From Acanthochlamys bracteata (Eukaryota; Streptophyta; Magnoliopsida; Pandanales; Velloziaceae): a DNA stretch of 64,000 bases. The stretch is from assembly GCA_019914995.1 (NCBI GenBank), contig CM034130.1, forward strand, positions 1,178,001-1,242,000, in the 5' to 3' direction. The position numbers and the translations under genes are program-made. Shown piece by piece: positions 17,670-21,451 of this stretch; position 1 is the first letter of the stretch; every line of letters starts with the position of its first letter. The notes beneath the pieces were generated by a model that ran no database searches, was not told the origin of the DNA, and worked only from the letters and a program-made list of their open reading frames with translations.

Positions 17670-20600
17670 TCACGGAACCTGTTCATACTTAGTCATCAGC
17701 TGTAATAGAGAGCTCGCTTTCCTCTGGCCTCTGTTTGTTCCGTTCTTTGAGACCTCATCGACATGTTCATAAACACCGTACTGAAGTGCAGTTAATAAGA
17801 CATTCGAATTATGCGTACTTAACTCGAGCAGAACGGCAAGGGCACATTCCTTGTTCTTAGGGGTACCTTCCTTTATGATCTCTACAAGAGTTTCGATGGA
17901 GGACTGCTGACCTATTTCACTACGACCATCAGGATGTGATGCTAGAATCAGAAGGATGGAGAGAGCTTCATCAACCATGCCTAAATTCTTGTCTGTTAAG
18001 ATTTGAAGAAGTGGCTTCACAGCGCCGGCTTCTATAGCTCTTGCTTTGTTCATGTGATTGAGTGACAGGTTGAAAAGCGCCGTGGCAGCATCCTTTTTCC
18101 CTCTGACAGTTCCGCTCTGCAAGAGATCAACAAGCGGAGGGATGCCATTCATTTGCCCTATTGCAGCTTTGTTCTCATCAAGCATAGATAGACTGAATAA
18201 TGTTGCTGCTGAAATTTCTCGTCCCTCGATTGTGCCATTTTGTAAGATATCAATTATTGCTGGGATGGCGCCTTCTCTGGCTATCAGCTTCTTGTTTCCA
18301 TCGTTAATTGATAGGTTTAGCAGTGCAGTCACAGCATTCTCCTGGATCTTGCGATCTGGGTAGGACAAGAGGCTTACAAGCGGAGGGACTCCACTGCTCT
18401 TTGCTATCAGTATTCGATTGTCAGGACTCTCTTTAGAGAGCCGGCAGATCCTTTGAACTGCATTCCTCTGCACTTCAAGGCTACTTGAGGATAGATCTTG
18501 AACAAGTGCTGGAATATCATCTTGGTTGAGATTCTCCTCGGAGTTCAAATCTTTCTTCGGCAACTCAACTTTGTTCTTCTCGCACCAATTCACGATTAAG
18601 TTGCGGAGGGCAATGTTAGGTGCCAATGACAAGTGAGACAACAATTCTCTCGTTGTTGGGCAGGTCCGATGACCAGCATCCAGCCACTTCTGTATGCTTG
18701 ATCTCTCATAAGTCTGTGAAGAACATATGTAAGAAACATGTGAGCAGACTTCCTATGAAACAAAAGGACGGGAAATACATATTATAGGCATGCATTAAGC
18801 ACCTGTCCTGTTGCAACAATGACTGGATCAGACATGATCTCTAAGGATATTGGGCACAGAAAATCATTAGGAATCATCAGAGATGGGCACTTCTCCAGGT
18901 ACTTAGGCAGTTTAACTGCACTGAGACCATCAGAGTCTTCAATGCCAGCTATTTGTTTAAACTGGCCTAGGAGATCTATCATCTGTGGCGTGGACTCAGC
19001 ATTCTGTCCACATCTTTCTTTGACGATCTTCCTCAAAGCAACTGTTTCTGCTCTCAAGTCTGGTACTGTCTGCAGTTCAAGTTTCTTTGCTAGTCTTTCA
19101 AGTATGGCTCTATCAGCATTCCTGTCATCATTCTGGGACAATATTACCATAAGATCCATGGCAAGCTCCATATCCTGAGTATCTGTCCTCCTTTTCGATC
19201 TTTTAAGCTGCATTCTCATGAGCTCAACCTGAAGATTACAAGCTTTACATAAGAAGCCAAGAATTACACTTAGATAAAAGCATCCAGACTTTTAACTGGT
19301 GAAGAAGTATGAGTGCAGCCCTATGTTTAAAAAGACTTGGGGAGTATTTACTCTAGCCACAAACTATCTGAGCAAGACTAATAGTCAGTGGTTAAACTCA
19401 TGTTATCTACATTTTCTTAAGGAAGAAACAAGTCTTCTTAAATTGCAATGATCAAATACCATTTAAATCTATGGCAAGATATGCTCCTACCTTAAATTAT
19501 CGAAACATGTCTTAAAGTCCATCTTAAAGCTTGAAAGGACACCAGGAAGACGGATGATAATAAGTCAATCTCTCAAATTATAAAGGTAGATACTCTACAT
19601 CTAACTGCTAGCTGTAAATAATTTAAAATGCAAGTCTCTAGCTGGCACTAAATCTTCAGAGTCCTCCAAAACCTTCTCATTCCTAAATGGACAACAGGTG
19701 GATTGATTTTCAAATCAAACCATCAGAAAGTTCTAGCAATATCTGCTAAAAATTAGAAAGAATACTGTATAGGTAAATGTTTTATGAAGCCGTTCAGTAT
19801 CCACTATTTCATTGCTGCATCAGTAACTATACCAAAAATCAAATGTCAGCAAATCTCTTCTACCTCTACTCACTAAACAAGTTCACAATTCGAGAGAAAG
19901 GACAACTTCACTTTGAACAAGTTTCCCAACCATCTACTCTTTCAGGAGTAAAAAGAATGAGAAAAAGGTTTCCTCCTAATTAGCTGTTCTCACAACGTTC
20001 AAACTCACAAAAGATCAACATAGCAATCACGTTAATCGCTACTTACCAACCAGAAGCGTCAAATCATATGTATGCTATAAGATCAACCAGCAAGTATATG
20101 CACTAAGAAAACCAAGACTGCAGCTTTAGTGTAAAGGCAAATAGCATACTTGCTCTTTGATTTCATCTGAGATGCCAAGCTCATCATAAGGCATGCCTTC
20201 CAGCGCCAGGCTCAACTTGTCATACACTGAGTGGAATCTTCCGATCACTGCCTCTCCCTCCAACAACTACACCCACAAACAACAAAATTTCATCAAATTA
20301 ACACATCACCAACAAATCAAAGAAGCAATGCAACTAAAAAATTGCTGTTGTAAAGATCATCTTTTTCTCGTCTCTTCATAAGTAAAAGATACACTTTATA
20401 AACACTGGTTCATTAATCTGTGTGACGAACTTAGAATTCTTTTCAAAACCAATTGGCAATGAGAAGAGTGAGCCCAAGTCTTTATGAATATCATCTCAGG
20501 ACCATTGATAAGCAATGTCAGACTAAACCTTTCTTTAACACCTGCTCTCCAGCAGAGCGTTTTTTTTTTTTTAAATTTTTAAATTGAATTGATGTGGACT

Positions 20601-21451
20601 ACATGCCCTATGATGAAGCGGGCGACCTGTCCTGAAATGAAATGGACTATTTGTCTTAGAATGAGCGGACAACTGTCCTTTGAATGAAAAGGGCTACCTG
20701 TCCTAAAACGAAACGAGCTATTTTTGACCTACACTAAACCGGACCATGAAGGCCCTAAATAGATATGAACAATAAATTAGATTTAGCCCACATCTTGGAC
20801 CGATCCGGCCCAACCCGCTCTGATACCATGTGACGAACTTATAATTCTTCTCAAAACCAATTGGCAATAAGAAGAGTGAGTTCAAATTTTTATGAATATC
20901 ATCTCAGGACCATTGATAAGCAACGTGGGACTAAACCTTTCTTTAACAATCTGGAATAGCTTTTCATCATTCAATAAGCAACTATTCATCCAAAAATCTT
21001 GATGTTTGATTTACCTGTCACTCCCTAATCTCTAAACTATGATTCTATAAGAGTAATTTCATCAAACAACAATGTAGCATACCAACTATTCTAATGTAAA
21101 TAGCACAATCCATCAAAACCATAGCAAGCAAAGGCTTACCAGGTAGATCTTGCTTCCCTCATGACAACACCGAAGCAGCTTCTTAGCAACAGCAAAGGTT
21201 CGAGCAAGCGATCGAAGCCGACAGCAAGCAGCAGAAGGAAGCTGCCTTTGTTCATCTAAGATTTCGTGCATTTCTTCCAGCAAAGGTGCTACAAGTTTCA
21301 TCCGCCGAACAAGATTGAAGCATTCTTTCTTCTGCATTCGCCGGTAGTCTCCAAACTCCCGTACTGCTTCGATCGTGTCGAGCATTCCTTTGATAATCTC
21401 TGCTTCTCCGCCACTGTTCTCCTTCCCCTCTACCGCCGGCGCCGCCTGCAT
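17670..21451 (-). CDS. U-box/armadillo E3 ubiquitin ligase (plant PUB, PUB13/14/15-like)
   Basis: Four exons (21140-21451, 20150-20266, 18803-19228, 17670-18713) encode 632 residues. The N-terminal U-box N-terminal domain has the signatures [20 protein letters not shown] and HEGSKIYL. The U-box (about residues 259-333) reads [20 protein letters not shown], then [19 protein letters not shown], with no metal-binding Cys/His set, as expected. Residues about 355-625 are armadillo repeats ([60 protein letters not shown]). The true start is ATG at 21451; a longer frame relies on a TTG codon. These proteins take ubiquitin from an E2 and pass it to substrates bound by the ARM region; relatives act in immunity, hormone signalling and cell death. 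N-terminal similarity favours PUB15, but the paralogue is not settled. Intron 1 carries a TRIM element. Confidence 0.92.
20421..20540 (-). repeat. TRIM 3' LTR
   Basis: This 120-bp copy is the downstream LTR in element orientation. It aligns end to end with 20829-20948 without gaps and has ten substitutions, eight of them clustered in two short stretches. Confidence 0.9.
20588..20730. repeat. Degenerate about 24-bp tandem repeats inside the TRIM
   Basis: Five or six imperfect copies of a 22-25 bp unit follow one another, each with a core like aatgaaaaGGGCTACCTGTCCt. They fill about half of the internal region between the LTRs. Their origin is not evident. Confidence 0.6.
20817..20828 (-). other. 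TRIM primer-binding site (tRNA-iMet type)
   Basis: The minus strand reads TGGTATCAGAGC directly after the 5' LTR. It is complementary to the 3' end of plant initiator methionine tRNA and fixes the element's orientation as minus. Confidence 0.9.
20829..20948 (-). repeat. TRIM 5' LTR
   Basis: This 120-bp LTR is upstream in element orientation. It starts TGTTAAAG at 20948, ends GTCACA at 20829 and abuts the primer-binding site. The 5-bp target duplication follows at 20949-20953. Confidence 0.9.

Follow-up and report, generated by a model that had tools for sequence, protein, structure and literature searches.

How does a retroelement of 528 bp, without any coding capacity, get transcribed and copied? 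The question is raised by an element lying in an intron of a U-box/ARM gene of Acanthochlamys bracteata, within a window of 64,000 nucleotides of contig CM034130.1 (the window being the whole stretch of DNA analysed). We describe the element and its family in the same genome, and propose that its LTRs carry a promoter of the type found in U6 and U3 genes.

A complete TRIM in the first intron of a U-box/ARM gene

The element is, with near certainty, a TRIM, and it is a real, complete and ordinary one. As described in the initial annotation, it is bordered by two 120-bp LTRs, both with TG...CA ends, and the 5-bp target duplication ATCTG is present on both sides (Table 1). The divergence between the LTRs, previously put at about 8%, is measured at 10/120 (8.3%), eight of the ten differences being transitions. 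The primer binding site (PBS) and the purine tract that had been claimed are both found. The 12-base PBS, TGGTATCAGAGC, which we take to fit the initiator-Met tRNA (tRNA-iMet), reads on the minus strand directly beside one LTR, which is therefore the 5' LTR of a minus-strand element; the purine-rich tract, GGAGAGCAGG, is short and includes one C. Coding capacity is absent, as had also been stated, the longest stop-to-stop frame (of at least 60 aa and mostly inside the element) being 61 aa.

Table 1. Coordinates of the TRIM, of its predicted signals and of its surroundings in the window.
Feature	Position	Strand	Remarks
Target-site duplication, copy 1	20416-20420	.	ATCTG on the plus strand
TRIM	20421-20948	-	528 bp
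Target-site duplication, copy 2	20949-20953	.	ATCTG on the plus strand
5' LTR	20829-20948	-	120 bp
3' LTR	20421-20540	-	120 bp; matches the 5' LTR at 110/120 positions
USE-like box, 5' LTR	20921-20933	-	TAGTCCCACGTTG, one mismatch to TAGTCCCACATYG
TATA-like box, 5' LTR	20890-20896	-	TTCATAA, 24 nt past the USE; placed by hand from LTR positions 53-59
USE-like box, 3' LTR	20513-20525	-	Decayed, two mismatches
Predicted transcription start	20864-20868	-	28-32 nt past the TATA-like box start, by analogy with U6/U3 genes
Primer binding site	20817-20828	-	Directly beside the 5' LTR
Row of short palindromes	20596-20813	-	GGGC/GCCC-type stems, period of about 24 nt in part
A-rich tract	20560-20572	-	13 A on the sense strand
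Purine-rich tract	20541-20550	-	Abuts the 3' LTR
First run of at least five T downstream of the element (T6)	20336-20341	-	Candidate Pol III stop, located by eye; putative function
Intron 1 of the U-box/ARM gene, holding the TRIM	20267-21139	-	Gene model by inspection
Exon 1, coding part	21140-21451	-	104 codons, PUB10_N domain

The host gene is on the minus strand and encodes U-box (PF04564), ARM_PUB (PF25598) and PUB10_N (PF25368) domains. The border between exon 1 and intron 1 reads CTG/GTAAGC at 21140/21139, and the intron ends with AG at 20267 (by eye). As gene and TRIM are both on the minus strand and the TRIM lies inside these borders, its insertion in sense in intron 1, reported earlier, holds for this predicted gene model. 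No close paralogue of the gene was found, the next best being 39% identical. The host gene would tolerate the TRIM as intron sequence.

An old family dispersed in the genome

The initial annotation had proposed a search of the source genome with the LTR. A 24-base LTR motif, with at most three mismatches, is found at 271 places, against one for the reversed-pattern control, and the whole TRIM has at least 47 matches in its own genome (40 of 517 candidates scored). From 39 fetched loci and the window, 44 copies with two LTRs were taken, of which 23 have perfect 5-bp duplications, five have duplications with one mismatch and 16 have neither. Some of these 16 belong to tandem or nested arrays (L009, L016, L017, L024 and L026) and have other copies as their outer neighbours. 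The flanks of the copies are unrelated, except in the TRIM arrays and in one pair of loci, L037 and L041. The family is dispersed and includes independent insertions, the 5-bp duplications of which differ. A fortuitous pair of repeats is ruled out, as the LTR anatomy is present at dozens of places with differing target duplications.

Where both LTRs match well (42 copies), 4 to 24 differences per about 120 positions separate them, and only six of these copies have fewer than the ten of the window copy, which is therefore among the younger members of an old family. The Kimura distance between its LTRs is about 0.09 (calculated by hand from the counts). With plant substitution rates of 0.7-1.3e-8 per site per year, its age can be roughly put at 3.5-6.5 million years, and the copy is old and probably inert.

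Two peculiar arrangements were observed among the fetched loci. Tandem arrays with three LTRs each occur at L016, L017 and L026, and copies in inverted orientation at L009, which is the structure named TA-TRIM in PMC4717578. Separately, L037 (1-930) and L041 (1-932), both on the chromosome-sized contig C18, share about 96% identity in the flanks on either side, and they thus represent one insertion duplicated with its surroundings. No autonomous partner, looked for by eye as a same-strand pair 1-15 kb apart, was found among 100 of the 271 places with the LTR motif.

USE and TATA boxes in the LTRs

According to the relevant passages of PMC9845283, plant snRNA promoters contain an upstream sequence element (USE), RTCCCACATCG, and a TATA box at -28 to -30, both being common to the snRNA genes transcribed by Pol II and by Pol III; the two boxes stand one helical turn closer to each other in U6 and U3 genes than in Pol II snRNA genes. 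A similar pair is present in the TRIM LTRs. The commonest form of the first box, TAGTCCCACATTG, occupies LTR positions 16-28, and is followed 24 nt further by a TATA-like box at positions 53-59, which is usually TTCATAA rather than TTTATAA. When 86 of the 88 LTRs are considered (L009_1_3 and L034_29_5 being left out), the best-fitting spacing is 24 nt in 83, 23 nt in two and 25 nt in one. The arrangement of a plant type 3 Pol III promoter, that is a USE close to RTCCCACATCG with a TATA box 20-25 nt on, is found in 59/86 LTRs, at most one mismatch being allowed in the USE and one in TTTATAA.

As the LTRs are related, this last count is a single observation repeated, and the fair figure is the rate obtained after shuffling. 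In 40,000 dinucleotide shuffles of the LTRs, the USE alone appears 88 times, and both boxes at 20-25 nt twice. Elsewhere in the window (126,924 bases, both strands), no sequence matches the USE with one mismatch or none.

These figures bear on the simplest alternative, which is that of an ordinary Pol II TRIM ('TRIMp2') with a TATA box in its U3, the USE match being coincidental or the binding site of another factor. TRIMs are by default taken as Pol II elements (as stated in part of PMC10886601), a TATA box is expected in any LTR, and the rate of the USE alone in shuffles is not vanishing for a motif which, as here, was chosen after seeing the sequence. Coincidence however fits poorly with the rarity of both boxes at the U6/U3 spacing in shuffles, with a spacing that is constant in nearly all LTRs, and with the identity of the 13-base box to the USE of one of this genome's U6 genes (see below). 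We consider an ordinary Pol II TRIM rather unlikely, and the snRNA-type promoter of the LTR is very probably real rather than a coincidence. As an architecture, a U6/U3-type promoter in the LTR is well supported.

In decayed copies, the USE is conserved no better than the rest of the LTR, and there is therefore no sign of selection after insertion; a separate comparison of two groups yielded too few differences to bear on this point.

Comparison with the snRNA genes of the same genome

The spacing between USE end and TATA start was measured at U6 (n=7), U3 (n=5), U1 (n=10) and U5 (n=10) loci of this genome. The U2 loci, which gave weak matches, were left out of these yardsticks; one of them, L061, has a wide spacing by eye. 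At the U1 and U5 genes, transcribed by Pol II, the spacing is 30-33 nt in 19/20 loci; for the remaining one, L089, the script gave 14 nt, and an AATAA is seen by eye near 31. At the U6 and U3 genes, transcribed by Pol III, 9/12 loci have a USE with no more than one mismatch, located at -65 to -68 relative to the gene, and six of these nine usable loci have script spacings of 20, 23, 23, 23, 25 and 25 nt. The other three (L048, 38 nt; L050, 18 nt; L072, 15 nt) have a doubtful choice of TATA box, and in L072 a TTTATAG is seen by eye at 24 nt. Where the boxes are clear, the distance from TATA start to gene start is 28-32 nt.

The TRIM resembles the U6/U3 genes in two respects: its USE-TATA spacing falls in the same range, and its commonest USE is identical to that of the U6 locus L051. 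The ATTG ending of the TRIM box is common to three of the six U6 loci. The U6 genes L048-L053 themselves show variation, with ATTG and AATG endings besides the canonical ATCG. The two systems differ in what follows the boxes, which is an snRNA gene in one case and R-U5, PBS and the TRIM body in the other, and in the usual form of the TATA-like box of the TRIM.

The spacing also bears on which polymerase would use the promoter. Since USE and TATA boxes occur in both classes of snRNA genes (in the portion of PMC9845283 considered), an snRNA-type LTR promoter could be used by RNA polymerase II, as in U1 and U5 genes. The 24 nt of the TRIM nevertheless lie outside the range of nearly all U1/U5 loci, and this alternative appears improbable. 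Because the spacing fits U6/U3 and not U1/U5, we lean towards Pol III rather than Pol II. The reading that we favour, to about the same degree and from the arrangement of the boxes, is that the TRIM LTR acts as a U6/U3-type (type 3) Pol III promoter, which would give rise to a short non-coding RNA.

Predicted transcript and its termination

Under this Pol III reading, the LTR would recruit RNA polymerase III together with the machinery that transcribes snRNA genes, and transcription from the 5' LTR would start at about LTR position 81-85 to yield a short non-coding RNA. This RNA would then be primed by the host tRNA at the PBS, reverse transcribed by the enzymes of an autonomous element, and inserted with a 5-bp duplication.

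Where such a transcript would end is less straightforward. The remainder of the window copy, downstream of the predicted start, has no run of five T on the sense strand, and a stop at the first such run past the element (T6; Table 1) would give a predicted RNA of about 533 nt. The longest T run of the LTRs is four in 72/86, and the LTR shows no clear terminator. Nearly all LTRs retain, about 13 nt past the predicted start, a T4 at which Pol III might stop early. Either this T4 is read through, or its copy in the 3' LTR terminates the transcript, which would result in a very short R.

In the stretch that leads from the predicted start to the A-rich tract, a run of at least five T is present in only 3/44 copies, as against a mean of 35.2 in shuffles (range 29-40), and a T4 in 43/44. 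This scarcity is consistent with Pol III transcription without proving it, because the copies share a common ancestor and about one fifth of the shuffles have no such run either. The initial annotation had suggested that the element could supply a polyadenylation signal; the canonical hexamer AATAAA is absent from the sense strand of 25/44 copies, the window copy being one of them, and the suggestion is not borne out as far as this hexamer is concerned.

Palindromes in the internal region

The internal region contains a row of short palindromes, eight before the purine tract and one more overlapping it. The row could represent the functional core of the element, as an RNA structure for packaging or dimerisation, the promoter then being incidental. 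In line with this possibility, the internal region of the window copy folds better, in sense, than 199/200 shuffles (z -3.07). Its antisense strand however folds well too (z -2.13), the median z over 23 copies being -1.64 in sense and -0.93 in antisense.

Covariation was assessed on an alignment (A1) of 33/44 internal regions, those of L009_1, L016_8, L024, L026_21, L034, L037, L038, L041, L042, L043 and L044 being left out. It is weak for the palindromes, as 12/500 shuffles reach the score and 63/500 the number of doubly changed pairs, and absent for two long-range helices, with 197/500 shuffles reaching the score. RNAalifold adds little (covariation term -0.97). A selected RNA structure in the internal region is at most suggested by these data, and a palindrome row acting as the core with an incidental promoter is very unlikely.

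Independently of the palindromes, the 3' part of the PBS, CAGAGCG (in 20817-20828), is complementary to CGCTCTG (in 20551-20560), just upstream of the purine tract; covariation gives no support for this pairing.

Relation to known small LTR elements

In several respects the family resembles the plant TRIMs described by Gao et al. (2016; PMC4717578; 156 families), which share with it short LTRs, a PBS and a purine tract, and likewise 5-bp duplications, lack of coding capacity, genic location and tandem arrays. No snRNA-type promoter is mentioned for them, the terms 'snRNA' and 'polymerase III' being absent from the text of that paper.

Another parallel is with the TRIMs with Pol III promoters, called TRIMp3 by Kojima, namely Cassandra, Helenus and Ajax (PMC10886601, in part). 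These are, like the window TRIM, short non-autonomous LTR elements with a Pol III-gene-like promoter in the LTR. Their promoters, which in the same portion of the paper are described as validated only for Cassandra, are derived from 5S or tRNA genes and are gene-internal, whereas that of the window TRIM consists of an external USE and TATA without any small-RNA body. In the text of PMC10886601, 'upstream sequence element', 'TATA' and 'snRNA' are all absent. Our family has a Pol III-type LTR promoter as far as architecture alone is concerned, and no derivation from 5S or tRNA is seen. Rfam (E <= 5) returns only sub-threshold snoRNA/sRNA matches, none of them near the threshold, and a search of the window with ARAGORN gives no tRNA gene, which rules out a retrozyme and a tRNA or 5S element. 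From its sequence, the U6/U3-type promoter can be read as a third promoter class for TRIMp3, beside the 5S and tRNA types.

The section of PMC3281118 on SMART/FRetro129 of grasses describes another LTR element of very small size, located in introns and UTRs. A TATAAAA box is present in its LTR, where no signal for polyadenylation or termination was recognised, and its transcription was for this reason left unclear there. It measures 292 bp and its description in that section does not mention a USE, in contrast with the 528 bp and the USE of the window TRIM. In the literature searched, which lay outside most subscription journals, we found no report of a TRIM with a USE/TATA promoter.

Cassandra LTRs have been described, in a part of PMC10853983, as tracking changes in the 5S promoter of their host. 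The ATTG ending common to the TRIM and U6 boxes is for this reason worth following.

Significance for TRIM biology

Our results, taken at the level of LTR architecture, raise the tentative possibility that TRIMs of this kind form a third class of Pol III retrotransposons, with an external USE/TATA promoter of U6/U3 type. Such a promoter could explain how elements too small for ordinary transcription signals get copied. If the proposal is true, it would explain why they are small, why most copies are without a canonical poly(A) signal, and how they are independent of the Pol II promoter of a helper. The polymerase would moreover be directly testable, through the classical switch of the spacing between USE and TATA.

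LTRs of the TCCCACATCG type may occur in many eudicots, and the class could therefore be widespread. If TRIM LTRs use the U6/U3 promoter, some TRIMs classed as Pol II elements by default would need to be moved, and each intronic copy, such as the one in the U-box/ARM gene, would be a potential Pol III start within a Pol II gene.
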